From Trichodelitschia bisporula (Eukaryota > Ascomycota > Dothideomycetes > Phaeotrichales > Phaeotrichaceae): a stretch of DNA of 64,000 bases. Shown piece by piece: positions 10,160 to 29,902 of this stretch. The translations under genes and the position numbers were made by a program. The stretch spans positions 312,364-376,363 of the forward strand of contig ML996696.1 of assembly GCA_010356995.1 (NCBI GenBank). Direction: 5' to 3'. The notes beneath the pieces were generated by a model. It had not been told where the DNA came from. It saw only the letters and a program-made list of their open reading frames with translations, and ran no database searches. How positions within the stretch are numbered: position 1 is the stretch's first letter; each line of letters starts with the position of its first letter.

Positions 10160-12737
10160 ATGCCCTCATTTCTCAAGAGCTTTCGCAAGTCTTCCGCCGC
10201 AAGTATCCGATCCAAGTTCGGTTCCGTTAATGGCAACAATGCTGGCGAATTTCGAAAGGCAGATGCGACGGACAAGACGGACAAGGTGGACAAGTCGGAC
10301 GAGACTCCCGACAGCGGCTCGGGCACTACCACCCCACCCAGTGAGCCTTTGACCGACCAAGATACGAACGCCAGCTCTGTCAATGGAAGCTCCGAGGTGT
10401 CCCTGGCGCGCCGCCCGAGTGTGATGCCAGGGACGGCGCACAGCAATCGTCATAGTGTCATCTCCATGGTGCGTACTCCTCCGTTAAGCTGCTGGTATCA
10501 CTACTAACGTCTATTAGAGTGGTATGACACGTCGGTCCAACGGACACAGCCCGCCTCCACTCTCGTACTATGCTCCGCATGTGACGTCCATCCGTGACGG
10601 CTATACTGTAAGACATGTGGTCCCTTGGTCCTGCAATTGCTAACTCCCGCAGGTGCATCAAAAGGTTCTGTTGATCAAGGGTCAGATCGGAGACCCTGAA
10701 AAGATTGGTGAGCTCAACAAGAGCAGCAATCAGCTGCCGACTCCGAAGCTGGTGGACGGTGAAGTCTTAATCCACCACCACCAAGACAGTTTCCCGCCCA
10801 TTCGTGTGCCGGTGGTGGACTCTCGTTTTAAGGCGCTGGTTCACCTGCAAGCCGGGCGCAACAACTTGTGTCTGGAGTTCTTCAAGGCGAGAGCATCGAC
10901 GAGCAATCTGTCTGTGCCCGAAGGCCACAAGAACTGGGTCACATACTCGTACCTTCCCATGAACGCGTCCCCACCGCTGCACCTGGCTCTGCTACTCGCC
11001 AAGGACTCTCCTGGAACATTTGATGCGGTTCCCGCTCGCATCGCCGCCGAAGGCAACGATCTTGAGACCGCCAAACGTAAGTTCCGTATGGCTGCCTATC
11101 TGTGGCAGGCATACACTGCGGAGCAGATGGGCCGCCATGGCTTCCACGGTCGCTGCTTCAGGTTCGAGGAGGAGTGGCAGACGTCTACGCTGGCCCACGA
11201 CGATCCGCCGCAGATGCGATCTGAGGCGCGCATTCACGTCATCCGGTTGGACGAAACTCTCGCGGAATTGCGGTCCGAACAATATGCTCAGAAGGATTGC
11301 GATACTACTGGCGGACTGTTCCAGATCGCCAAGGAAGCGTGCAAGGCACACTTCCCGCAGATTCCCGGACAGAAGCAGTATGTGGCTTGCATGTATCTCG
11401 ACACGCATTGGGACCAAAATAAGATCCTCGCGCATGCAGCAGCTGGCGGCTCAGACGAATCCATGGGGCTCGCCGTCTTTGGATCGCATGCGCTTCAGGC
11501 GTACCCGGCCAGTGTTCATGACGTCATTCCGACTTTCTCGGACTGCACTCGGACCGACACCCAGTTCGTAGCCAACGAGCTGCAGCAGTCTGGCAGCGTC
11601 TGGGAAGCGGCCACAGCCGCCATCAGCGCGCACCTCCATCAGGTCGGACACGCGTTTGGCCTCCCGCACCGCACCCACGGCATCATGGCTCGGGAATTCG
11701 CTCCACTGAACCGTTCCTTCACCGTCGGAGAGCCGTATTCGACGCGTACGCGGGCGGCCGGCCGTCGTGTGTGCCCGTCCAGTCAAGAAGCGAAGTGGCA
11801 CCGCACTGACTGTCTTCGTTTTCGGTATCATCCGTGCTTCCGTCACAACTTGGACTCCGTAGGACGCCCGATCCCGCCGGAGAGCAGCGCTGGAATCACG
11901 ATTTGGACCACCGAACACGGTCCGATGGCCAAAGCCGAAACCGGCATCGCTTGGATCGAACTGTACCGGGACGACGAGGAGCTCTCTGAAGCCTTCAAGG
12001 AACTCATCCCGCATCCCGGAATGCCGGGCAGTGCCTCGCCGCCAAGCCTCAACTGTCCAACCCGCTACAAGCTGGACGAGGTCGAGTTGCGCGATCTGCT
12101 GAAGCAGTCTGCTGGGCTCGAGAAGAATGGATTCAAGAGGCTGCGGCTGAAGATCTACTCCACGGCGGGTGGCTGCTACGAGGTGGATGATCTGTCCCGG
12201 CTGACGAGCAAGGAGATGCGTGTCAAGCTTCCCAGCGGTCAAACGGGCTTCCGTGGAGGTGTCGTCGGCCCCGGCCGCATCAATAAGCAGGAGACCATTT
12301 TGGATACAGTATGTCGGCGGGGACAACCCAAGATGCTCCTTGGTATCCGCGTCTATTTCGACACGGCTATCGATGGCCTCGAGTTCTTGTATGAAGATTC
12401 CTCGAGTCAGCTGATCGGCAACCGCGGGAACCAAAGCGAAGACTTTACGTTCGACATTCGCCGCGGCGAGACGTTTGCGGGCTTCTACGTGCGTTGCGGG
12501 ACGGCCATCGATGCGCTACAGGTTATCGCGACCACGACGGGGCGGAAGAGTCCACTGTTTGGCAACATATCGGCGGCAGGCGGGTAAGATTTTCCTCGAC
12601 TTCATTTCGTATGCAGAGCTCAGACTAATTTACCGCTCAGGTACTTCTTGATGCCCCCGTACGGATACCAAGTCGTCGGCATCACTACCACTTCCAATCC
12701 CTCGCTCGACTCGATGCAGCTCATTATCACTCGTTAG
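10160..12737 (+). CDS. zincin-like metallopeptidase with jacalin-like C-terminal domain (YIL108W-type family)
   Basis: Four exons join in frame: 10160-10468, 10518-10607, 10653-12583, 12641-12737, giving about 808 residues. I prefer MPSFLKSFRKSS (10160) as the start; an in-frame ATG at 10133 would add nine residues. The central part matches the fungal putative metallopeptidase family that includes yeast YIL108W: VACMYLDTHWDQNK, GSHALQAYPASVHDVIPTF, then the metal-site motif and GIMAREFAPLNRSFTVGEPYS. The metal-site motif reads HQVGHAFGLPH (His 462, 466 and 472), so the usual catalytic Glu of HExxHxxGxxH is Gln. From about residue 660 to the end the pattern (GFRGGVVGPG, LLGIRVYFDTAIDGLEFLYE, PYGYQVVGITTTSN) fits a jacalin-like beta-prism lectin fold. 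No signal peptide is seen, so it is probably intracellular. Substrate unknown. Confidence 0.85.
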
Positions 12738-12748
12738 TTTGCTGGGCT

Positions 12749-13138
12749 TCACCACATCTGCATTTCGTTGGCCCTACTTTCAGCATGTCGCGTACACCCT
12801 TGGTCTTTTGTAAGACTTTGCAGGACCCACACGATATCAGGACCATCGTCTGGGTCTTTCCATTGTTCATGTCGAAAATACAGGAAGGCATCATATCCCT
12901 GGAAGCCGAGGGCCGTGGCCACGGCTTTGGCGGCGTTTAGGTCTGGAGCTTTTGCTGGATGTAAATGGCATATGAGCATATCAACATCCAAGGGGGGTGA
13001 GCTAGGAGGCGGTCTCATTGTCTCGTCTGATAGAAGCCGGTGGGTTATTTCCTGTACATAACGCTCACACCCTCCCTGGATTTCCGCATCATGTTCGCTT
13101 TTCTTCTCCTGCATCCTCTTTGAGCTTTTTGAAGGCAT
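12749..13138 (-). CDS. small hypothetical protein, 129 residues
   Basis: The frame runs from ATG 13138 (MPSKSSKRMQEKKSEHDAE) to a stop at 12749, only 11 bp from the stop of the metallopeptidase gene on the other strand. The N-terminus is basic and helical. The middle (DAAKAVATALGFQGYDAFLYFRHEQWKDPDDGPDIVWVLQ type) has an alternating hydrophobic pattern unlike random frames. I do not recognise the family. The unbroken frame and the folded-looking pattern support a gene, but the close tail-to-tail spacing means transcripts would overlap. Confidence 0.45.
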   Translation of the reverse strand: MPSKSSKRMQEKKSEHDAEIQGGCERYVQEITHRLLSDETMRPPPSSPPLDVDMLICHLHPAKAPDLNAAKAVATALGFQGYDAFLYFRHEQWKDPDDGPDIVWVLQSLTKDQGCTRHAESRANEMQMW

Positions 13139-14404
13139 TTTCGAGCGGTTAGGGACTTGTCTTCAGCGATTGATACCTGCTGTCAGCCATTTCGTTTCAG
13201 GTTCCGGTAGGCTTTTAGAGTGCCGTCGAGGCAGCGAAGAGCGGCGCTTTGCGGTTCAAGGACGTGATGGCGGCACCGTAATGTAATGTGTTAGGCTTGA
13301 AGGCTTGTAGTATCCACGAGGAAGGTGAATGGATTCCGATAAGTACATAGAAACGGTTATACCCTCGTGGGGCGCAATGACGCGTTCTAGTTCTTGATTT
13401 TACGAAAGGTGCGTAGGACTTGCAAGTGATGTCGATAGTGATTTGAGCATTCAGCCTTTCGACGGACAGGGTCGAGGCCTATCTCGTGGCTGCCAATTAC
13501 CAGATTTTTCTGCAAGGCAGTCGCTTCCGTTTCAGGAATGCTTAACTCTAACGCCTGCATGTTCTCCAGGACGTTCCTATGCCGCCTATCTACTCAACCG
13601 TCTCAATAAAAGCACAATATCTTCATGCCATGTAGTTCACTACAGTTGAGAATGAAGTCAAATTTTTACATACTCGATATGTGTGTCTTTGAACTAAGAT
13701 TTTACTTTTATGTGTCCTTGACGCATAAGTACCTCGCGACTTCAGGATGAGAGCTTTTAGTGTGGTAAGTTCGCCAAGACTACGCGTCTGGCTATTCGAT
13801 TCAGGGGAAAGGGTGGGTATGCGTGGACGGATTGGATCCAAGAAAAATTATACGTGGTTGTAGTTCTTCCCGCGGTGCGGTCCAGAGTATGTAAGCAGGT
13901 TATAAATGTCGCTCTTTCTTCCGCCGTGTTGGGGAACATATGACAGGGCAGTGCTGTAAGCCTATTGGGTGCTGATGCAAGCTGCGCGTGCTGCAAAGCA
14001 CACCCCACCGTTGCAGCTGCTACAGAAGTTTGTTCTGTAGGATAATTATAGCGGCATCGGTACTGCAAAAAAATTAAATACATCTACTTGCAGTCATAGA
14101 ACCGCAAATCACCGCCGGGACCCAAAACCAGCCAATCAAGAAACGTGAAGCTGAGAAATGCGCGCCAATCAGGGCACTAGTTTCACACCTGAGCCATAAG
14201 AACGTGACCTCTAGCATAACAAATTTCATCACGGGTTTATCAGGTGTGAGAAAAATCTCAATCGCGCATCTCGTCGGAATAGATTCACCGAACCGCCGAT
14301 GATCTCAATACACCTATGTCAGAGGTGTGTGATTTGAATGTCACTCTAAAATTTGATTTCGCTACGCTTTAGCGGCTAACCGCAGGAGGATAGGGGGAGG
14401 GAGT

Positions 14405-14437
14405 GCGTAGGGGCGTAGGGGCGTAGGGGCGTAGGGG
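14405..14437. repeat. 8-bp tandem repeat GCGTAGGG, 4 copies
   Basis: Four exact 8-bp units in a row, preceded by a G-rich stretch (GATAGGGGGAGGGAG). The G-runs separated by GTA recall telomere-type DNA, but the unit is not a known telomere repeat to my knowledge. Confidence 0.85.
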
Positions 14438-16854
14438 AGCTCCCTTGTGCTGTGGGTTGTCCTCGCTGGTGCCCTTGCAACTGGCGCACCAATCTCCGAG
14501 CAAATTTCTTTAACGGAACTGTTCTGCAAGGAAAACGTTTCTCTCTGATTGGTCAGCTAATAAAGAGTACGCTAGCGGTGGTGCCCGCAGGACAAGAGAT
14601 ACGTGCTTTTCTCATTTTATTTACAGTACCCACCCTACTCGGTTCATTAAGGCGATCTCAGGATATGTACCGTCCAGGCATAGGCATATGAAATGAAAGA
14701 ATATATGCATCTGAAAAGTGGGAGTTAGCTAGCATGATTGGCCAGCGTGCTTTGGAATACGTGTCTTTTAAATTGGTTGAGGCGGAGGGAGGGGACGACA
14801 ACACATATCCCATATGGCGAGTGCTCCGAGCTCTGGAGTGCACAAGTAATAATTCCGAAAAGAAGCCATTCACCTCGCCGGGTCTCTATGCAAGCAAAGT
14901 ATCTTTTTAGTGGTTCTGCTTCTCAAACACGGCTTTTAAACTCTACTTTCAAACCTTAGTAGGCCTCCGTCTAAAGCTTTTAGTATCCGCAGTTTTCCTG
15001 ACCACCATGCAATATTTTGACACTGCTGCAAAGACTTGGGTTGCCTACAGTCTAGGGAAAGCAACCCCGCAGTCGCAACTACTGCTTTTTTTTTGTCGAG
15101 CAATATGTTGACTGCGGCTTGGTACTTGCCATTTATCTAGGACGCATACTTTGACGCCACGGTATGCTTAAGAATAGAGGGACGAGTTACAAGCCATATC
15201 TACACTGCCCGCTGGCTTGCCTTTTGGGCAATGAGCTTTACCAGTACCTAAGGATTCCGGCTATCCGGAGTTCCACAGCATCCTGGTATGACTAATGTCA
15301 AACTGACATGAGCAAGTAACACTTTGGAAGGCGGAGGTTATCATTATAAAGGAGTAGGCCAACTACCAGGGACACTTCCCGACCTGGACGGGACGTTTGC
15401 TATCATCATGTTTCAGGGTCTAGAAGCGCGGTAAATTTATGGCGAGCAGTTCTCTTATTTATTATCACAATATACATGCTGTCTACTTCCTCTCTGCCTG
15501 CACTTCTCACTGCAACCAAATTCTTGTAAAGAGAACTCATACTCCATGCAACGTGTTAGACCAGCATGGTAGCCAGAGTCCGGCTGAGTTGTGCAATAAA
15601 CGTGCAGATTTGGTTGGTCAAATGGGTAAATGAGGTAACCATTACTCATGAATCCATCACCCATGGATCGATGCCAGCTACTCCCCTAGCGGAAGTCATT
15701 ATGCGTAAATCCCACAAATTTGAGGTGCGCACCTTACATGCGCGCCCTCCTTTATCCCAAATGAAAAACACCTTCGTTTAAGAAATACAAGCCAGGTTGC
15801 CATGTTCACCCCTTCAAAGCTACTGAAATTATGTAGCTGCATAAATAGATGGAATCTATCTACGCAGAATTTAAATTCAGTTTTGCTAGACCCCCCCTTA
15901 CATCCACACCGTCATATGCAGCCAAGAGACCCCCATAACACTAAGGGGTTAAGCTATGCCTTGTACTAAGGGTGTCCGCAATGGCATCATTATGACTGGC
16001 CTGGCGTTGGAGCCTCCTCCCCACTGGGAAGGAAGCTCCGGTCAGGGTTTGGGTCGACACCCAGGCTCTTTCCTTGAGCAGACATAGAGGGTTTGCTTGT
16101 TTGGCAACCTTAGGCATATCAGCCGTCCTATGCTATATATAGCTTGCTTCCTCCCACATCTCTCACCAGGCACCATCTCTCTCTCTCATTCACGCACTCC
16201 CACGTTTGTGACGTTCATCCAAGCTCTGATAAAAACTCATGGGGTCCGGCATTAAAAAATAGGCTTACAATTTAGGCCCCGGGAGCCTGGACGCTGGCGA
16301 TGGAATAGCGGGATGGATTGGTAATGCCTCTCGGCGGTAGACGATAAGAACTTTGTCCCGAATCACCGAAGCTACCCAAGGCAGCTCTCGAAGTACACTC
16401 ACATTCCGAGTCTGGGTATTATGAACACTAGGGCAGACCGGACGACGCTACTTGAGCGCCACAACGAGACTGTGATTGAAAAAGATAATTTGAGGGCTAC
16501 GGTGAAATTGAGAGGAATGCATGAGACTGCGAAAGAGGCGTGGCTTTGAATGTAAAGGGGTGCGCTGCACGGTTTACATTGGAGATTAGGAGACAATCAT
16601 GGAGCGCTGTAGCAGAAGCCAAGCGTGCGTTAATGGATAAGTATCCTCTTGCCTTTATTGCAAAGTAGATCAGTCAGCAAGGTACCGGATAGAAGCTGGA
16701 ATAGCGGTTAGGTGGCGGTTGCAGGATGGCCAGAACACGTTTATCGCAGAGCGGGTCTCCTCGCTAGCGTCCGCGTATATGCCGGAATAATTCAAAGAGC
16801 AAGAATTTAGTTCTATAAATGCTTCTCTATTTAGGTAACAAATTATAGCTTTCT

Positions 16855-16911
16855 GACCGGTCCATAATAGCGAAATAGTGGGGGCCGAGTACCTGGGGCG
16901 TACATGGGATA
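16855..16911. mobile_element. degenerate right half of the GTACGGCCCAGG foldback family
   Basis: The stretch ending GTACCTGGGGCGTACATGGGATA matches, with several changes, the right ends of the elements at 19868-20076 and 21907-22062, including the inner GGTCCATAATAGC part. No left half is seen nearby, so this is a truncated, old copy. Confidence 0.6.
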
Positions 16912-18349
16912 GTAAAATAATAAACTCTACAAAAATATCACTGGGGCCATCGCAGTGTCAATAATTTGGCTTACTAAACCAACATTAATGATCGGATTGA
17001 TCTTTTTGCAAATCAGTCGGGTAAACATGCTCGCACCTTAAACCTTACATATCTTTTTTACGCCTAGCTTCAATGGGATCCTGGCGCTGCTCGTAGGGAA
17101 AGCGGTGCTGTGCAGCCGAGTAATGTTTTTCCGGTAGGTGGGGGTGGCTAAAGGAGACTTAAATTATGTGTTGCGTCGAGACAGCTCTAATGAAATAAGA
17201 ATTAGTGAGACATCTATTTCGCATAGATAAATCGCCATTCGAAGTTGCATTAAAAAGCCAAGTGCTGAGGGAACCATTGACAAGGGATGGGGTAGTGCGC
17301 AATAAAAAGGGACTTCGATGGATAGCCTTACAAGTATGCTCTAACAGAATAGCGTTAACTTTAAGAATGACCTGCTACGGTGTTTGCACAATTATATATC
17401 CTGCATAGAACGCAACCCCGATAAGCGGGATTGACATAGACTGGAGGAGGTTTTAGAAGGTTGTTTATTACCTACCTACTAACGACTAACAACTTTTACG
17501 TTATGGAAAGAAAGGGGATAGATAATGAATATGCCTGTGGAAGTATATCACATTGCAACCAAGCAAAGGAGCTCTGTTATCTGCTCAGTATCGTCCCAGA
17601 GTTTCAATGGTTCCGCAAGTCCAGTTTATACATTTATATGTCGTCGATGATAACCGTATTATCGCCGCGAGCCTATCCATCTCCAGTAATGCAACAGCTT
17701 GTATACAAAAGAAATTCCTTGTCTTTTTATTTTATCAAGTAGGATCTGGCCGAGCGTGGGCAAAGTAGGAGAGGGACGGAGTAGAATGTCGTAGATGGTA
17801 AAGTTCCTAGTAATAATGTATGGCCTGTAGCATTTATGCAAGCGGGAGCATTTTCTTAGTAGCAGGCGCTTACTGAGTAGAGCGTATGCGACGTCTATAT
17901 CTCCGTTTTCTCTCGGGGAATCTCTTGTACGGCCCAGGTACTGGCTCAGGTACTTGTTGGCTACGTACCCGCAATTATGTACCAATTAGAGAGCTCAAAT
18001 TTATGTCTGTAACAATTTCTTTGGGTGCTTGTAAATTTACTGCCCAAAAACTTTCATCAACAGCCCTCCCGAAAGTTAGTCCCTAAAGGGGTAAGGGTTC
18101 CTCGCAATCCTTACGCTTACGTAACTAGCGCCAAAATTACTGCCGTACCTAAACCAGTGACTTATTAGCCACATACACCCTACAAATCTTGGCCAAGATC
18201 CTATCAAAAAACTTACCGCAACTTCAAGTCGCGATGCACTCATGCCACAGTATAATATAAAATTGCAGTTAAGTTCATTTAAATTGCCTTAGCGCGGCGA
18301 GTATTTTGGCGTGCCTTTTGTCGTATTGGCATTATTATAAAAAGAGTTA

Positions 18350-18497
18350 GCTTTTCCTCAACCCTTCCAGGGGGGGGTTTTGCCGTGTGGAACCAAAAGA
18401 ATTGGTCAAACCCACTCATAAAGTGGTGAGACCCGACCATGTGGCTAGCTAAAACAAGCCTGGGCGTAATCAAGCTATTATTATTATTATTATTATA
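18350..18497 (+). repeat. repeat unit U1 (5'-truncated copy, TTA tail)
   Basis: This copy starts at CTTTTCCTCAACCCTTCCAGG and runs through GGTCAAACCCACTC, GGTGAGACCCGACCAT and AAGCCTGGGCGTAATCAAGC into a (TTA)n tail of about 20 bp. Compared with U2 it lacks about the first 50 bp. Truncation at the 5' side plus a simple-repeat tail is what retroposed short elements (SINEs) show. Confidence 0.8.
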
Positions 18498-18530
18498 AAA
18501 AGAGTTATTATGGTTTGAGGTTAAACATAT

Positions 18531-18726
18531 GTTGAAGGCGTGGGGCTCACATGCCCCTCTCCAAAGGAAGACTTCCAGGGCTTTTCCTCAACCCTTCCAG
18601 GGAGGGTTTTTGCCGTGTAGAACCAAAGAAATTGGTCAAACCCACTCCTAAAGTGGTGAGACCCGACCATACGGCTAGCTAAAACAAGCCTGGGCGTAAT
18701 CAAGCTATTATTATTATTATTATTAT
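18531..18726 (+). repeat. repeat unit U2 (longest copy, TTA tail)
   Basis: This is the longest copy, from GTTGAAGGCGTGGGGCTCAC to the (TTA)n tail, about 195 bp. It is about 90 percent identical to U1 over the shared part and to the complement of U3. A weak tRNA-like internal-promoter pattern (TAGCTAAAACAAGCCTGG; GGTCAAACCC) is present but incomplete, so a Pol III origin is only a suggestion. Confidence 0.8.
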
Positions 18727-18770
18727 GGTTTGAGGTTTTGTAGTACTTGGTTTGGGAGCCGCAGCTAGCC

Positions 18771-18955
18771 ATAATAATAATAGCTTAATTACGCCCAGGC
18801 TTGTTTTAGCTAGCCGTATGGTCGGGTCTCACCACTTTAGGAGTGGGTTTGACAAATTTCTTTCGTTCTACGCGGCAAAAACCCTCCCTGGAAGGGTTGA
18901 GGAAAAGCCCTGAGAGTCGTCCTTTGGAGAGGGGCATGTGAGCCCCACGCCTTTT
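18771..18955 (-). repeat. repeat unit U3 (inverted copy of U2)
   Basis: The reverse complement of this stretch matches U2 almost end to end, including the (TTA)n tail (seen here as ATAATAATAA) and the AGGCGTGGGGCTCAC end. U2 and U3 thus face each other tail to tail across about 45 bp and could form a long hairpin. Confidence 0.85.
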
Positions 18956-19867
18956 ACATGTGTGTATCGTCTTTTCTTTGCACCATTCTTGTGTGTCTCA
19001 AGCGAGAACTTGGCTGCACGCCGAGAAACCGAGAAACACTCCATATCCCAATTAAACCCCAAAAACGCCGAACGCCTACAGCAACGCAGATCCCGTGATT
19101 CTAGGTCATGTGATCGAAGAGAGAAGGAGAGGAAGGAAATTGCGGAATGCCAGGTGGTGTCCGGAGGCCGCCAGTGGGGGCGGCTCTTTGGGGGAGATCC
19201 GGCTCCTGGTAGCAAGGGTTGTGTTGAATCCGCTCTTCTTCACGCGCAGCTAGCCATACTTAGCCATGAAACCTTCAATGCGCGATAACTCTCTACTATG
19301 CAGCGAAATCTTAATGAGAGTGGTATCCAAATACTCGCCGCATTAAGGCGATTAGGATGAGCTTTACTGCAGCTTTATGTCATATTGTGGCATGAGTGCA
19401 TCGCGAGTTGAAGTTGCGGTAAAATTGTTGATAGGGGTTTGGCGTAATACACGTGAGCAAATATAAGTTCCGGCGGTGTTTGTGGTGAATTGCGTAAGCG
19501 CACGTTGGCAGCTGACTTTAGCCTTTTGGGACTAATGTCTCGGAGGGCTGTAGATGAAAGTTTTTAGGCTATAGATATATAAGCACCCATTGCTTTGTTT
19601 CTGCAACAGGTCCTAGTTCTTTGATTGGCCCGTAATAGCGGGTACGTGGCCGACAAGTACCTGCGCCAGTACTTGGGCCAGTACAAGTGCCGTACAAGGG
19701 ATACTACACAGCAACGGTTCCCAGCGGTCGGTGTTCTTTGGCTGGATTATCTTGGCAAGGTATCTCTTATTAATAGGTAAGTCCCGATTCTTTGAATTCC
19801 CTTCGCTCACGAAAGTGCTCATCCAGTTGTTTCCTACACGGCAGTATTATGTAATACCTTTCTAGCT

Positions 19868-20076
19868 GTCCCTTGTACGGCCCAGGGACTGGCGCAGGTC
19901 CTCATTGCATACGTACCCGCTATCATAGACCAGTTGAAGAACTAGAATTCATTCCAGAAACAGAGAAATCTTCACGCAACTTTTTTAAGCTCTTTAATTG
20001 GTCCATGATAGCAGGTGCGTAGGCCACGAGTACCTAGACCACTACCTGGACAAGTACCAGGGCCGTACAAGGGATA
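19868..20076. mobile_element. short foldback element (MITE-like), about 210 bp
   Basis: The left half begins GTCCCTTGTACGGCCCAGGG and the right half ends GGGCCGTACAAGGGATA. Each half is about 80-85 bp and the two are inverted copies (for example CGTACCCGCTATCATAGACCA near 19910 against its complement near 20010). The centre is only about 40 bp, so it cannot code for anything. It shares its ends and inner sequence with the 1.8-kb element. Confidence 0.85.
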
Positions 20077-20312
20077 TATCTCCTGGCTACTATTTCATTT
20101 CAGTGTAAAGCACGAATAGCATAAGGGTAGAGGATGTATACTTGCGCTCAACTTATTATTATTTACTCCATTCCTTGTATCTTAAGCTCAGATGCGTAGA
20201 GCGCATTTCAGAGGTTAATAAGGGAGATTGCACGAAATTTATATTAGATAAGCTATTCAGTTCAGTTAATTTTCCGATTACACTCCGAACTCAAAACGGC
20301 TTTGGACGTTGT

Positions 20313-20378
20313 TATCCCTTGTACGGCCCAAGTACCTGGGCCTGTACCTGGGCCAGTACCTGGGCCGTATAAGGGATA
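20313..20378. mobile_element. minimal 66-bp foldback element
   Basis: The stretch starts TATCCCTTGTACGGCCCAAG and ends GGGCCGTATAAGGGATA, so both family ends are present. Between them the block GTACCTGGGCC occurs three times in a row. This looks like two element ends joined, with local expansion of the end repeat. Confidence 0.8.
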
Positions 20379-21906
20379 TGGTAGAGCTGAATTAGTTATT
20401 GAGTGGACAACCGCCATTGTATCCGCCTTTAAGGCTCTTTAGCTAATTCATAGTCTCGATGGATTCTAGGAGATACGCCGTTTACTCCCTTCAACTTTGA
20501 ACTAAGTCCTCCGCCTTAGAGGATATATCCCTTTATCTATCTCCATTGCCTACCTTTCAGCAGCTGAGCGGAATATCCAATGTCGAAACCTCGCTCTTCC
20601 GGCCCCTGATTGAGTGTTCGTGCTCTTGCAGTGGGAGTTATTAGGCGAACTCCCATAAAGCTCAAGACAAACATATAATTTGCATACGCAGAAGTCCAGG
20701 CTACAGCAAAACGACATTTTTGAGGAGTACATTCCAGTTTTTCACCCAGCCTTCCCCAAACTTTGTAGTTGAATAACGAACTTCCTTTGAGCTGCAGTCG
20801 TGATTCATTCATGACACAGGTTTCACATCATATATCCCTTATTGCGGGCATCCTCACGGGCGTTCTCGTAACTGTGGCATCAATCAGAGAGCAGGGTCCC
20901 TTTACATAATCATTATATCACACATTTCAGCCCTCTGCTTGGTCCGCAGCTTACGAGACCGCCAGCGAGGACGCCTGCAGTATTAGGGATAGGTTTTCGA
21001 ACGCCTCAATAAGACAACAGGGTTGACGTCTTATTTAACTCAATAAAATTATGAAAACTGCATAATTTAGCTACAAAATATGTGCAGCTTTGGCCGGCAT
21101 ATCAGAATGCATTTTCTGTAACATCGGCCTTCGAAACGGGCCGCTGGAGAAGAGCTTAGGAAAGGTGTTAATCTTATGGTGCTCGGAGTGTACACTTTAT
21201 GATTCCTTTGGTACCAATAGTAGTTAGTATGGTTCTACTGCACGTGTGTATTCGCTAGGGAATTGGTCGTTAGTCTATCCGGTTGTCTCTAGCTCAATAA
21301 ATGGAAAGCGCTTACTTCCCTCCGGTTCTGGCTTCAATGCAAGCCCCATCAAAGGCTTGTCCGCTCACGGATTGGGAGATTAGTTAGTCAAGATTTTTGC
21401 ATCAAGGCAACTATATGTTCGTAAGTGGCCGAAGCAGGACAAGAATTTCGGTTAGACCTACAAACACGCCCCCTACGCCCTCCACACCCCATGACAATTA
21501 TTGACTTTGACGAAGCTCCACGGAGACCGAATTTGGTTTATCAAACTGCCTGGACGGCACTAGTAAGCGGGCAGCATTTTTATTTTTATCAAACGGCATC
21601 TCATGAATGCAGTGCGATTTGAAAGTTTTGTAGCTTATCGCGGCTTAACTCCCTATTACCCTATCAAATCATGAGAAGTAACGAAAGTCCAGTAAAATGC
21701 CCAATTTTCTAAGAACCCCAGTTTCTGTTCGAGACGATGTATGACTCATTACAGCTGCCCTAACGAGATACACGACCTGGCACGTATTAAGCTGATATCC
21801 CTTTATAAAAGCTTGTTATTTAGGTATACAGCAGTGCGACATCAAAGATTTTAAGTACTGCAACTTTCTAAGGCCCACGCCTCTGATTGACTGATATCAG
21901 AGGAGG

Positions 21907-22062
21907 TATCCCCTGTACGGCCCAAGTACACGCCCAGGTACTTGCTAGCATGGACCAAGAAAAGCGCTCGGATTTGTTGCGAGACTGAGAATTCTTTACA
22001 GAACTAAATCGAGCTCTTCCATTGGTTTATGCTAGACCAGTACCTGGGCCGTACAAGGGATA
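21907..22062. mobile_element. foldback element, about 156 bp
   Basis: It starts TATCCCCTGTACGGCCCAAG and ends GGGCCGTACAAGGGATA. The inner TGGACCAAGAAAAGC and TTCCATTGGTTTATGCTAGACC correspond to the inner parts of the 19.9-kb copy, but the arms are partly deleted. Confidence 0.75.
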
Positions 22063-22149
22063 GATGGGTCGTTTGTTTTTCAAAAGACATATTGGATGCA
22101 TACCTTGATCATCATAAGCTGCAGCATTGCTCCCTGGTTACCACTAAGA

Positions 22150-22285
22150 CTCATGATTTTTTAATGTTGAACTTCAATTTGCGATGCAGTCATAATGTGC
22201 TAAAATAGAGATCAGTTGTATATCATGAGATTAAACTCATTAGGGCGAGGAATCTGATACCACATTTCAACGTAGGGGGTTTGGC
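22150..22285. repeat. diverged fragment of the 1.8-kb element's arm
   Basis: The sequence around ACTTCAATTTGCGATGCAGTCATAATG, then TAAACTCATTAGGGCGAGGA and GATACCACATTTC follows, in order, the inner arm of the 17.9-19.7 kb element (ACTTCAACTCGCGATGCACTCATG, GCTCATCCTAATCGCC, GATACCACTCTC). Many changes are present, so it is an older copy without ends. Confidence 0.5.
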
Positions 22286-24427
22286 CCGGCTTAACCCCGC
22301 TCCTAGACGCTTTTGCAATTAACTTGCTGTTTCCTACACATGTGGCCGTCTGCATGGACCTTAGGGAACCGTATTTGGCGTATAGTAGAATATATCTATC
22401 TTCTGCGCTTGGATCAATGAATATATAGGAAGACGCTTCAAACTTTGTTTTGTATGGATCAGGGTAACAGTATAGTAGTTGCTTAGCTCTATATTTGCTC
22501 GGGGAAATTCTCGTCAGGTTACTGGCCGGCTGGATGGTTTCTATTTAAGGCATTGTCCCAAGAAACTTTCGGTACTCTCACATAATTCATGAAGTACGGC
22601 TTAAGATCTTCTTTGAGATCGAGTCTATGGATGTCAAGATTGAGGCGTCGGTGGGGTCTGCTGCACGACCTCCTCGTTGTGAATCAACCGCTAGCCTGGT
22701 GCTGTCTGTTGAAACTACATGTACAAATTATGGGTAACAGGTGTACCTATGAGAACTGTGGGAGGACCTCTCTCGCGATACAGTATTTACGACGTATGCA
22801 GGCTTGTTGTGAGAGTCCGTAAGGCATGTCCTGGTATGTATCCCTTCGATTGCTGGTGTCATCGCTACGTCCCTCGCTGTGTGACGTGCCATGGTGAGAC
22901 GCTGTCAAAGCTTCATGTTTCTCCACCTACGTCTGCCACAGCTGCTAGCACATCATCTATCAAGGAACGCGCCCTTACGGCCATCAATAATGACAAAATC
23001 ATTGCCAGAGCTGAGAGCGTTGCATCACTCTGCCATGTCCTCCCATTTCGCATTGTGCCATTTTCAAAATTTCCGACGCTATTCTTTGTCTACCATGATG
23101 TGGGCGTGGAAGGAGCATCCTTATGTCAGGAAGGGGCGTATGTAACGCGAGCATGATAGAAGGAAGGCGCAAAGGAAGATACTTGGCATTGTGCATTTAG
23201 TTTCGAGAGCTTCTGACTCTCTCCTTCTCTTTGTCTTCAACTTCAATATTCAGTGACATATGGAGGATTTGGCGCACTTTGAGAGTTGAACTTTGTACTT
23301 AACGCTTTTTGCGTACGCTCTTTATGCCTCTGTGAGCCCTGGTGACCCGGCATTACCCGGCACTCGGGTTTTTTGGTGTTGAAAAATCCTGTCCACACAT
23401 TGGTCAATGAAGCATGATGACATAAGCGAGGGCCTGGCAGTCGAAGAGATGGATGGCGGCATGAAGCTATTCGGGGTCCTCCCGATGTGACGCTTGCTAA
23501 TCGGAGTACCCTAGCCAATGTTAGTTACTCAGTAGACCTAGAGAAAAAAGTTAAGGCTTTGGACTATATAGCTCTTGCATTGGTATGGATGAGGAATCAA
23601 TCGCTGTCTTGCGGGGTTTACTCCAACGTCCGCCTGTGCAAATAGTTAGTGACCGGCGAAACATCGGACCCAAACGCTCACCAGCTTGAATAGCGGCCAG
23701 ACTGCAGGTTGAACGGTTTTCTGAGAGTAGAAGCTGATAGCTGTTGTTGGTATTCTCAGAAGACCGCCTCGTAGTGCGCTGCGGCAGTTTCCCAGCCATC
23801 ACAGGCTAAGAAGACTTGAATCTGATGAGGAGGCGGACTTATGACCACAACGAAGGGCTATTGCACCCGTAAGCCAATGGTGAAGGAGCTCCTCATCGCA
23901 TCTATTACGGTCAGGCATACGCGTCGACCAACAAGACATTAAGTGGCATTCACATCCAAATATGTTACAACACAATAGCCAATGTACTCCTCAAGGCGCT
24001 TGCCGACGCTACCCACTACACAAGATACAGGACGACAGAAAGTCAACAATCATTACGACAGCGCAAAGGTCTTCCGACTGGAAGTAAACGGCAGAGCAAA
24101 AACCCAGTCACCAATCTAGCGCAAACCGAACGGACTATTCATAACCACCTCGTCTCTCCCAGTGGAGACGGCAAAGAAGCAAAAGTCCAAAGGATACCCA
24201 AAGCTCCTGCACGCCATTTTCCCGACGACTCAAAAAGATGCCACCGCAAGGACTCCAATATTTCCCCTAGAAATATGTTTTACGAATTGAACCGCCAGGT
24301 GGACTTGCTCCCTAGAGCGAGCCGACCAAAAATTACAAAGCATTATCTGACGTCATCTTCCTCTGTCCAAACCCAAAGTTCAGGAAACCAAAGAGGCGGC
24401 AGCGATGGTGGACCGCGCGAGAACCGC

Positions 24428-27400
24428 TCAGTCGCCGGCCGATGTTGCTGATACAGTCGCCGTGACCGGAGCGGCGGTTGTGTTCGCGAGACTGACGCCG
24501 CCCGCGTCATCCACATCTTCCGACCCGGTGACGTTCCCTGCAACAGACTCGTCAGCAGATGAAGCTGAGATGAGCTTGCTGAGGACGAGCTGCTCGGCCG
24601 GGTCGGCAACGAGACGCAGCGTGGAGGTGTAGCTCGCCTGTGCAGAGTTCGACTTGATGGCCGACGCTTCACCGGCCGCCTCGTTCGTCGCATTGCTACC
24701 GTCCGCTGCGACCGATACGGAATTGCGTGCTTCGCGCTCGCGGCACATCTTATCTTTGGCTTGTTGTGCCGCCATTAGAGAGTCGATGTACGTGCGGAAC
24801 TTGACAATCTCCCGCAGGAGATAGGCCGACTTCTTCTCCCAGTTTGCCATGGCCTTGGCCGCATTCGGATGGCGAGGCGAGAACTGTCACCATTAGCACT
24901 GAATCAAAGGAAAATACCAGGGGCAAACTCACCGCCATGCCCATCAGCGGCCGCAGTTCGTTGTGCCGCCGCAGGTCCTCTTCAACGTTCGTCACGTACG
25001 CCGTGAGTGCGCGCAGCTGGTCTACCTCCATAAGGTTACTTGCCATCATGCTCTGTTGCGGCGGCATCCAGTCGCTAATCGTGACGCGGTCTCCTGGAAG
25101 GCGCGCCCGGAACGTCCCAGGGCCGTGATCATCGCTACGCCGCGAGTCGGACCCACGTGATAGCGGACTCATGGGCGTGGTGCCGGTCAAGCGAGACGTC
25201 GCCACGCGGTCGCTGTGATGGCTGTGCAGGCTGTGACCACCAGTCGACCCTGCAGTCATCGGAGGATGTGCCGATTCCGGCCGCGAGCCTGGACGACTCT
25301 GCCCCGCTGCAGCCGAAACCACGGCATCGCCCCAACCATACTCGATGTTCGACACACCCCCGCCGAGCGGCTCCTTGCTCAAGCGCGCCGACCAATAGTT
25401 GGCGGTGCTCACGAACTCCTTGGCAATCTCCGGAGTGCCGACGTGGAACAAGTGAACAGCACCCGTCGGCAGAGATAGCGCCCAGACATGCGGCCGCGAC
25501 TTGGAGTACCCCGGCGGTGGAAGAGTGCTGGCAATCGTCTGGCGCAGCAAGAAGCTGACCACCTCCTCAGCGTTCTCGGTCCAGTTGCCGCCGCCGACCA
25601 CGTTGCCGGCGCTAGAGCTCGTCACCGGGCGCTTCGGCTTGTGGCGGGCGTGCTTCGCATTTGCGTTGAATGAAAAGAGACGCATGAAGCCCTTTTCAAT
25701 AACGGCGAAGCACTCACTCCACCCGCGCTCTTTGGCCTTTTTTTCCAGCGTCTCGAGGTGGTGCTTGTGCTTGACTATGCCCTCCTTCGCCCATGGCGGA
25801 CCAGCGAGTTCGAGCGTCTCATCTTCAAGCAGTGGCACGACCCGGCCACAGTCTTCGGTACCGGCATTGGCCTCTTCGCGGATGTTGGCCTGGCTCAGCG
25901 CGTTAGCAAAGCCGATGGCCCGCTGGTAGTCACCGTGTGCAAAGTGCGAGCCGAGCGAATCGACCGACATCGACGTAGGCGTCTTGCCGAGCGAGTACTT
26001 GCTCCACGTGCTGCCGGCAGGACTCCACACGGACTGATCGTCGAGGCTGGTACGGCTGGAGCCGATGGTTGACGAGGGGTAAACGCGTGGACGTGACCGC
26101 GGCTTGGAACCAAAGCGTGCCGTGGCAGTCCGGAAGTCGGTCGAGCGGCCGCGGTAGCTGACAGTATCAGATGGAGCCTTGCTGAGCACACTCGGGGTGC
26201 GGCGTAGGGCGTTGGTCACGACGGAAAGACCACCGCTGGACGCTTCGGGAGGAGGGTTTGAACCGTGAAGTGGGAGGCACTGGGTGCGGATGGAATTGTA
26301 AAACTCCTTGAGCACAATCTCCACCTGAAACTCCCACCCCTTCATGCCACCTTCGTACGGGGCCTTGACGAGCACGTTGCAGTTGTCGATGGTCTGGTTG
26401 TCGGACGACGAGCCCGGCCCCTCAGAGTCAGCGCGTGCCGGTGGCCGGATGGACAGGCGGTTGCGTGAGCGGCGCGTCTCGAGAGAATGGCGCTCGGCGG
26501 GCTCATCGGCCGCAAAGACTGGGGACGAGGGCGAGTTTGCCTCCCAGTTGCCACGGGAGTGTCGGCTCTGCGCTCGGACCATCTCGGCCTGCGTTGGGAG
26601 CGCGGCGTCGGCGATACTCCGAATGGTCGGCAGCGTATTCTTGACGAATTGGTTGCGCGTCATGCGCTGCTCAATGTCGGCAATGTGCAGATCGGTATTA
26701 AGCATAAGCACCGAGTACGTAATAGTGTGTACAACGTCGCGGTCCTTGAAGCCGTGGCTCGGGTTGCAGTGGCACCAGCGCTCCGAAAACGCGTCAATGA
26801 CGCGGTCCAGCTGCTGCGACTCCGCCTTAACAACAAGACGGCAGCAAAGCTCGCGGAAAGCGGCGAGGATGTTAACGCCAGCCCAGTCGAACAGATCCAT
26901 GTAGGCGCGCCGCACGCGCAAGCTCGTGGCGTTAGTTTGCCCAAGCCAGGCCGCAGCACCTGACTTGGGGACGAAGCTCTCGTCACCGTCGAAGATCTTC
27001 TGCGCGCGGTCACGGTCGTCGGCAGTAATTTCCGTATCCTGCGCAAGTATCGCCTTGGAGCCGTCCGTGTCAGCCCACTCGGGGACTAGCTCGCGGTTCT
27101 CAACATGCACAACAGGCAAGCTTGTCGCCGAGGAGAAGACGTCGTTCTCGCTCGACGGAGACAGCTGGTCGCTTAAGCGGTCCGAGGTCCGCGGCCCTTC
27201 GAGTGGCAGTGACAAGCGGGCCGACGCGGGTAGCTTCTCATCGGATGAATTGCCGTCGAGCCACAGGCGACTACTATCACCCTGAGTAGTCACTGCAGAC
27301 GTCATATACTGGTCGTCGTCGTCATCATCAAGCAGGCGGGAGGGTTGATCATCGCCGGGCAGACGCACCGAGCTGAGGTAGTCGATGCGCTTCTCGCCAA

Positions 27401-29261
27401 TGTTTGCCCGGCGCGGCGCTGGCTCATCCAGCCGGACCGTGGTGGCAGAGTATGGAGATGATGTCGGCGGAGGCGACCGGTGCGTCGAGAATGGCTGGTC
27501 GTCGCCGCTGTTGTCGGCCAGGAACGAGCCACCGTCCATGTCGCCCACGAAGCCAGATGACGGTCGGTTGCGCTGATTGATATTTGCGGCGAGGGAAAAC
27601 GGCGACCGGTCAACTTGTACGCTTTGCACGCGGAGCTTGGTGGTGCCATGGCGCGGTGTGCGGTTCTCAAACTCGTCGAGGAATGGTGGACCGGTGGGCG
27701 CGGGTCGGGTGGGCGCCTCCGAGCCCGTCGTATTGTGCGGGGAAACATCGCGACCGCGGTCAAAGTCATGCATCGGTGGCTGGTGTTCCTGTGAGTCGAA
27801 GTAAGTTTCGAGCGGGCTGCGGGGACTAGTAACCTTGTCGGCGAGATAGGGGGCCATGACATTGCGGAGGCTACTTGTAGTGGGGCTTGGTTGTGCAGGG
27901 GTGATTCCGTTCATCCTCGAGTATTTTTGCTGCTGGAACGGCTGCAGCACAGGGACCGGAGGAGGCATGGTCTCAGTGAGTGACTTCTTTCGGCGCCGGA
28001 AAAAGGAAGAGTGCGACTTTTTCAGAGTGCCGGTGTAGCCGATATCTCTGGACGACGATGGGTCCTGAGTGGGTGGTCGAGATGACGAAGGCTTGGTTTG
28101 TGCCATGTGCTGCTGCGCAGGTTGAGTTCGCGGTCGACTGGGCGTCACGTTCGACGAAGTTTGCCGCAGCGGCGGGGACGGATCGTGCTTGTCGTCCTGA
28201 GGCTGCGGAGCCGGCGAGCTGTTCTTGGAAGAGCCGCCACCAAAGACGCGTCGGAAGAAGCCCGGTCGTTCCTTTGGTGCTGGCTGAAGCACGGGAACGG
28301 CGGGATAGACCTTTCGTGACGATACCGTTGGGCTGGGCGCCGACGGAGTAGACGACGCGTGCACGCTCAGCATGTTGTTCGTTTGCTGGACAAATTGCTT
28401 TGCTTGGTCACGAATTGCCGGATCCATAGCTCCCGCCTGTGTCTGGCTCTTTGGCTTTCTCAGGGTCCGTCCACCGGTCGTCGACCTCATGCTGTTTTTG
28501 CGCGAAGGGGCCTTCCTCGGCGTTACGGGAGACGGCAGGATGGCAGGCGAGAGAGATTCTGTCGGGCGCCGAGGACCCGCAGGTATTGTGGGCGTCGGCG
28601 CAGCATCATCATCGTCGTAGTCCATGGAAGGCTCCGACAGATTCCGGTCCAGCATAGGCACTGACGCCTTCTTGTGCGGTGACGGGCGCTGCACACGCTC
28701 CGAAAAGCAGCTCTGGTCGAAGCTGGCGGCACGGCTGGGCCCGTGGGCGTGACGGCCAGCAGCAGCAGCAGCACTTGCACTGCTGCTCACAAAGCCGTTG
28801 CCCGCTGTGTATCCCAGATCCATGCTCGACGAGCCACTCCCCTTGCTGCCCTTGATGCCAGTGCCGCGGGAATGTCGCGGCCCGTCGTGGTCCGGACGCG
28901 TGCTGTTGCTGGCGGTGCTCTCGGTGCGGGTGGGACGCTTAGACTGGGATACGTTGCCACGACCGCGAGAGTGGTAGACGGCGTAGCGACTGGCCGTGTC
29001 GTCGACGTGCAGATCGTAGTCGGACAGCGAGCTCGTGGCCGTGTGGCCGCGTCGTCGGCCGGAGTTGCTTGGAGCCTTGTGCGGACTGGTCGTGTAGATT
29101 TCGGTAGTGGCGTCGAAGTCATTGAAGGGCGAGGTTGAATTGGATGTAGAGGGGAAGTCGGAGAGGGACAGGAGCATGGAATCGACGACGCTGAAGCGCG
29201 TAAAGCGCAATGAGAGGTCATGGGAGTCACGCTCGCCGGCGGGACGGTCTACGAGCTCCAT
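24428..29261 (-). CDS. Arf guanine-nucleotide exchange factor, Sec7-PH (EFA6/Yel1 type)
   Basis: Two exons, 29261-24933 and 24883-24428, flank a 49-nt intron and give about 1594 residues. The first 735 residues are Ser/Pro-rich and disordered. The Sec7 domain lies at about 740-880: RAYMDLFDWAGVNILAAFRELC, then AESQQLDRVIDAFSERWCHCNP, then VHTITYSVLMLNTDLH and MTRNQFVKNTLP. The Glu of the catalytic finger is kept (KAESQQLDRV in place of the usual LPGEAQ). A PH domain follows at about 1157-1294 (KEGIVKHKHHLETLEKKAKERGW to ALSLPTGAVHLFHVGTPEIAKEFV). A coiled-coil region follows (MASNLMEVDQLRALTAYV, NAAKAMANWEKKSAYLLREIVKF). Sec7-PH-coil is the EFA6/Yel1 layout, so the likely substrate is an Arf6/Arf3-type GTPase at the plasma membrane (inference). 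The last 90 residues are low complexity. Confidence 0.88.
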
Positions 29262-29902
29262 TGTGGCATGGCAAGCAGCACCCTCACACCTGCCGTGGAA
29301 CGGAACAGGGTTGTAGGGGGGATGGGTTCTACGTGCGTGTGGTTATGTGTGGTATCTGGTGTGTGGTGTGTGGTGTACTCCGCAGGCAAGGGAATGTGGA
29401 GAAAATGCGACAAGAGCACCGCAGCAGCCGCAAGCGCGAGAAGACGGTGAAGAAGGCGAAGAAGCAGGGGCAATGGGTGTAGGAACGAGCGTTGTGAGGC
29501 GGATTGTCGTGGTCGTTAGAGTGTGGTGATAGTGCAAAAGATGGTGTTGCAGCAAGAGAGCTGAAGAATCATGGGCCGAGTCCTTTTCTCGAGAGAAGGA
29601 GCGAGAGAGAGGAGGAGAGTTGAGACGCCGAAGAGAGGGGAGGCTTGACGCGCTTGGGGCTTGAGACCATGGGGATGACAAGGTCAGTTGATTGGCTGAT
29701 TGTCCTGGTAAAGAGAGAGGGGAACTGCAGGGGACTCAAGACTGGATATGGAAGGCGCGTGCTGTCCAGGGGAAGGAGCGAATTGTGGAGAGTCTTCTCT
29801 TCTTTTTTTGCTTTGGGCAGGGACGATCGATGGTTTCCCGATGGTGATGATCCTTGTTGGTGTTGAGCCGAACTTCATACACTACCGTACGAAGGTATGA
29901 AC

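Follow-up and report, generated by a model that had tools for sequence, protein, structure and literature searches.

A nest of three mobile DNA families in a candidate regional centromere of Trichodelitschia bisporula, with a mariner-like MITE that recurs in one cluster on each of 21 scaffolds

Judged by sequence comparison, positions 17919-19703 of the 64,000-nucleotide stretch of Trichodelitschia bisporula DNA analyzed here (the window; contig ML996696.1) hold three independent types of mobile DNA, nested so that a short element (family A) is split by a foldback element (family B) that was itself hit by three copies of a LINE (family C). Around the nest is an AT-rich block of 11 kb, most likely the scaffold's regional centromere, and A, together with a sister family E, appears to be a mariner-like MITE confined to clusters of this kind; we assign this reading a probability of about 0.84. 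The 1785-bp unit was dissected by comparison with other loci in the same genome, and its parts are listed here in order.

17921..18022, no strand: left half of A (MITE); tip TCTCTTGTACGG with 1 mismatch; aligns with other A copies
18023..18334, no strand: left arm of the B foldback, inserted in A; ends GGGTGC; degenerate duplication ATTTCTTT / ATTGCTTT, 7/8 bases
18350..18492, plus strand: LINE 3' end, copy 1; (ATT)n tail; target duplication TTATAAAAAGAGTTA
18523..18723, plus strand: LINE 3' end, copy 2; target duplication TATGGTTTGAGGTT
18774..19245, minus strand: LINE 3' end, copy 3; target duplication GCAGCTAGCCATA; 3' region same as that behind the reverse-transcriptase frame on scaffold C22
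19259..19588, no strand: right arm of the B foldback; alignment with other B copies
19589..19701, no strand: right half of the same A element; TA directly after; tip match and alignment

At either end, the outer ~100 bp belong to a single A element that was split: the two pieces sum to ~215 bp, as in intact copies, and align with other A copies. Further in, two oppositely oriented LINE 3' ends make up a palindrome with 94% complementarity. All three LINE copies in the window are 5'-truncated, and each carries an ATT-type tail and its own target duplication.

An earlier note on this DNA had described 17919-19703 as a single foldback element with inverted arms of about 400 bp around a core without coding sequence. 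The arms are real, as 17924-18306 pairs with 19687-19329 at 71% identity over 385 columns (E 6e-46, far beyond chance), and in the core, frame 18914-19288 and two more frames have no Pfam match. The unit is nevertheless not one element, since its core and inner arms come from other mobile elements that entered one ~215-bp A copy, and its long arms do not come from one insertion; a single 1785-bp foldback is rejected on account of these nested insertions, with clear target duplications for the LINE copies and a degenerate one for B. The same ends on shorter elements nearby had also been noted correctly, and within 5 kb we find three paired copies and one truncated copy, the paired ones measuring 206, 62, and 152 bp (a few bases off the 209, 66, and 156 bp first given); these short relatives are separate A insertions. 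It is hardly credible, then, that one large foldback heads a series shrunk by internal deletion or hairpin self-priming. Lengths of A copies do range from 49 to 242 bp, and the 62-bp copy, little more than a pair of tips, could have arisen from a longer A by internal deletion, so that small deletions inside A are likely. For the 1785-bp unit the idea fails: 24 of the 34 paired A copies measure 193–222 bp and none is near 1785 bp (under a pairing rule with a maximum of 320 bp), and the large form is accounted for by nested insertions with target duplications, the copy having been enlarged by B and three LINE insertions.

Apart from the split copy, the window contains the following members of A and E.

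14441..14599, no strand: E element, sister MITE; tips like bases 1 to 10 of the A tip (TCCCTTGTAC); interior differs
16784..16909, no strand: A element, truncated, right tip retained; tip match and alignment
19869-20074, no strand: A element, 206 bp; TA only on the right
20315-20376, no strand: A element, tips only, 62 bp; TA on both sides
20835..20989, no strand: second E element; TA on both sides; tips diverged; palindrome
21909-22060, no strand: A element, 152 bp; TA on both sides

The 34 paired copies of family A, all from the loci examined, are non-coding and have inverted 21-bp tips. TA duplications at the insertion sites, which the earlier note had proposed to look for, are well supported: TA stands at the left end of 26/34 copies and at the right end of 28/34, at both ends in 20/34, and at one end at least in 34/34, against a background of 5.2%. 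One copy on scaffold C5 lies in a palindromic target, the halves of which meet at TA. Mean pairwise identity among the 32 copies longer than 150 bp is 70%. The tips of family E are similar to those of A and several of its copies are flanked by TA, but the interior differs; further relatives were seen only in clusters. MITEs of the IS630-Tc1-mariner group duplicate TA, have short terminal inverted repeats and lack coding capacity, all of which holds for A. Such MITEs are usually scattered near genes, whereas A is found at one locus per scaffold. Most likely, A and E would have moved in cut-and-paste fashion, using a transposase provided in trans, presumably of mariner type, and would either have inserted into centromeric DNA or have survived solely there.

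A genome-wide search for a transposase partner gave one DDE_1 and one DDE_3 match; the best A tips nearby have 6 and 8 mismatches out of 21, and both genes were set aside as partners for want of convincing A ends. The DDE_1 match (C23:90264-90599; pogo/CENP-B type), the sole one in the genome, lies in a 300-codon open frame 35 kb from the cluster on C23, and this frame has no convincing terminal repeats. Repeat-induced point mutation (RIP) of a heavy kind was also discarded as an influence on A, as C-to-T change at CA (14.3%, vs. 7–9% at CC, CG, and CT) indicates a mild effect only.

Family B is a foldback family of ~650-bp palindromes (590–690 bp in other loci) with very long terminal inverted repeats. 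Five uninterrupted copies, at C13, C17, C6, and twice on C1, measure 591–684 bp, and the copy on C22 is interrupted. Among eight copies compared, a 9-bp target duplication is exact in one (L007), matches at 8/9 bases in two (L006, L008), is degenerate in the window, and is not recognizable in the other four (L003, L004, L005, L040). MULE-type foldback elements have very long terminal inverted repeats and 9-bp duplications; B resembles them in the former and, in some copies, in the latter, and would be classed as MULE-like. On C22 an A copy lies inside a B copy, the reverse of the order in the window, so that insertion has gone both ways between the two families. B is present in clusters and in scaffold arms.

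The LINE shows a reverse transcriptase, a constant 3' end, 5' truncation, a tail, and duplications of 13–15 bp, these last as read in the three window copies only. In the C22 cluster its 3' sequence follows a reverse-transcriptase frame, and C22:244901-247600 there contains a broken LINE. When matches within 150 bp are merged, LINE pieces occupy 31 places, two of them the window's own, and 24/31 lie no more than 5 kb from a cluster span. Other reverse-transcriptase matches were seen on C23, 4 kb outside the span of its cluster, and on C15 at a distance of ~3 kb from a LINE piece.

The surroundings of the nest differ in composition from the rest of the window, and two features of this block are listed.

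13001..24000, no strand: AT-rich block, 11 kb, no recognizable genes, candidate regional centromere; from GC, frames, and Pfam
16077..16229, plus strand: segment D, 150 bp, repeated only in or beside clusters; TATA-like and CT-rich stretch

GC content is 46% in the block (43–48% per kb) and averages 55.7% outside it (49–65% per kb), and the median of the longest stop-free run per kb is 95 codons within the block vs. 211 outside. Stop-to-stop frames in the block reach at most 147 codons; a 192-codon frame (23873-24451) spans its right edge. A Pfam scan of 12 of the 21 block frames of at least 80 codons gave nothing above the cut-off and one sub-threshold match (E 0.006), and the 64-kb window as a whole has no tRNA or Rfam match. 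Genes with Pfam domains flank the block at 10644-12587 and 24750-29342. As to the host judged from proteins alone, a helicase encoded in the window was uninformative; the mitochondrial L4 protein has its best match in chain 6ywe (1e-64, the next 9e-33), from Neurospora, which makes a filamentous ascomycete likely. Four clusters were examined closely, including that of the window, and the other three (C3, C18, and C25) resemble it, each being an AT-rich block (43–51% GC) without recognizable genes. How far such a dip is unique along a scaffold was sampled on C25 only, at one kb per 5.3 kb: of 58 further kb, two were all N and one nearly so, and 54/55 readable kb had at least 51% GC, the exception (46%) adjoining the cluster; dips shorter than ~4 kb could escape this sampling. 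Little of the sequence recurs elsewhere: 2.8 of 11.9 kb in the window cluster resembles the other loci compared (other clusters in part, some B-bearing loci), and the corresponding figures for C3 and C18 are 3.5 and 1.4 of 9 kb. Matches to segment D are 75–86% identical, and all lie in, or at most 4 kb from, other clusters; with its resemblance to a fungal promoter, the segment could be a driver of centromeric transcription or an LTR remnant.

The earlier note had also suggested searching the genome with the element ends. In the 25.65-Mb genome the A tip pattern, at up to 3 mismatches, has 104 matches, and a reversed control has 0. Among the 100 tip matches listed, 99 lie in clusters, and each of 21 of the 30 scaffolds has one such cluster; the sole listed tip outside has 3 mismatches, where 0.44 matches are expected by chance. 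Two whole A copies used as queries gave the same picture, with at least 70 and at least 77 matches, those of the queries to themselves included, all inside these clusters (for the latter query, the best 40 of 51 candidates were scored). The clusters span 0.2–14 kb each and 114 kb in total, or 0.44% of the genome, a figure that is descriptive because the spans are defined by A. The one-per-scaffold pattern offers an independent test: no scaffold with two A clusters was found, and when 21 loci were placed at random by scaffold length, 21 distinct scaffolds were obtained in 0/200,000 draws (mean 13.8). One AT-rich locus of ~10 kb per scaffold without recognizable genes is best read as a short regional centromere, and the 21 A clusters are accordingly best explained as, and probably are, such centromeres.

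Other kinds of AT-rich heterochromatic island seem quite improbable as the identity of the clusters. Nine scaffolds do have no cluster, B and the LINE also occur at sites elsewhere, and we infer centromere identity rather than observe it; islands would be expected to recur on large scaffolds, however, and the A locus is present exactly once on each of 21. To our knowledge, no common structure other than the centromere fits exactly one locus per scaffold. If the clusters are centromeres, A with its sister E would be a MITE confined to candidate centromeres, and the question becomes why. It is quite possible, at somewhat less than even odds, that A is an ordinary old MITE that was once everywhere and has survived where genes are absent and recombination is low. 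The copies are old, as their 70% mean identity indicates, and the LINE and B also accumulate in clusters. Yet a dispersed 160-bp repeat with a comparable divergence persists in the arms: its copy at 23096-23254, inside the AT-rich block and 1 kb beyond the last A element, has a CT-rich stretch and at least 40 further matches on scaffold arms and none in clusters (40 of 117 candidates scored), 74–85% identical to the window copy, with one short match at 71%. A general purge would be expected to clear these copies, and those of the LINE and B, from the arms as well, where A was seen only as the one tip match at chance level; the arm copies thus argue against general purging and mildly for targeting of A.

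Targeting of this sort, with a transposase that recognized centromeric chromatin so that A and E colonized every centromere and nothing else, is a reading we hold only tentatively and consider doubtful in its strict form; were it true, the A and E tips might by now have turned into a sequence label for centromere DNA that is otherwise largely unique. The supply of TA was rejected as a cause of clustering, as TA is only about twice as dense in clusters (6.4–7.2%) as in arms (3.2%). It is unlikely that A and E are instead a functional part of the centromere held by selection, for instance as binding sites for a CENP-B-like protein. A is present at all 21 clusters with 2–9 listed tips each, and its tips and central palindrome seem to be its most conserved parts; but presence at all clusters is circular when they are defined by A, copies differ greatly in number and length (a single copy found on C12, nine tips on C10), and conserved tips are expected in any transposon. 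Selection for a hairpin was likewise tried and dropped. The paired fraction of A arms is 0.762 vs. 0.7616 after shuffling between copies in one palindrome register (95/200 shuffles as high) and 0.770 vs. 0.765 in the other (38/200), and cells altered on both sides are in slight, non-significant excess (25 vs. 20.5, 27/200; 14 vs. 11.1, 31/200). With arm pairing not significantly above that of shuffled copies, there is no good sign of hairpin maintenance.

Centromere-restricted retroelements are already known in fungi. In Verticillium dahliae, the 7.3-kb LTR-retrotransposon-like element VdLTRE9 makes up 48–83% of ~150-kb centromeres and marks a single AT-rich, gene-poor region per chromosome, with 204 of 215 copies centromeric (PMC7482064). 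The likeness to A lies in such a region being tagged by a single repeat family; A, in contrast, is a non-coding DNA element of ~200 bp that forms a small part of a ~10-kb block. The centromeres of Zymoseptoria tritici average 10.3 kb and are repeat-poor and unique in sequence, with 48.3% vs. 52.3% GC and no centromere-specific motif or transposon (PMC4589918). The clusters are similarly short, repeat-poor, and mildly AT-rich, and differ in that A appears to be specific to them; Z. tritici also shows that AT-richness is not required of regional centromeres. Work on Grem-LINE1 reportedly belongs with the mosaic centromeres of Mucor. These have a 200-bp kinetochore-binding core with a specific motif and retrotransposons around it (PMC10977804). 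A centromere-specific motif with surrounding retrotransposons is what they would share with the clusters, whereas A is a TA-flanked transposon present in several copies at most loci. Nothing like A appeared in a search for centromeric MITEs in fungi among open-licence papers, and a text search of papers for the motif gave one, unrelated, match. The present case thus appears to combine short, mostly unique candidate centromeres with a DNA transposon confined to them; in the cases compared, the centromere-specific fungal elements are retroelements, and A would be a tiny DNA transposon. Being confined to one short locus per scaffold, A could serve as a sequence tag for finding centromeres in this lineage from the assembly alone, and it would make testable whether DNA transposons target centromeric chromatin or merely survive there.

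The nine scaffolds without an A cluster total 3.45 Mb and may be chromosome arms or may be without family A; among them, C14, C15, C17, and C21 may be detached arms. On C16 only 11 kb separate the cluster (C16:10897-24540) from the start of the scaffold, which reads N, and this scaffold may begin near its centromere. No telomeric TTAGGG array was found in 50 readable scaffold ends of 240 bases each (59 of 60 ends fetched; nine starts all N), so the scaffolds are not proven chromosomes and "one per chromosome" is a step that we infer. The ends of C4, C16, C18, C21, and C27 contain what, from its motif, resembles WD40-repeat coding sequence, which suggests that the assembly breaks at repetitive NLR-like genes.
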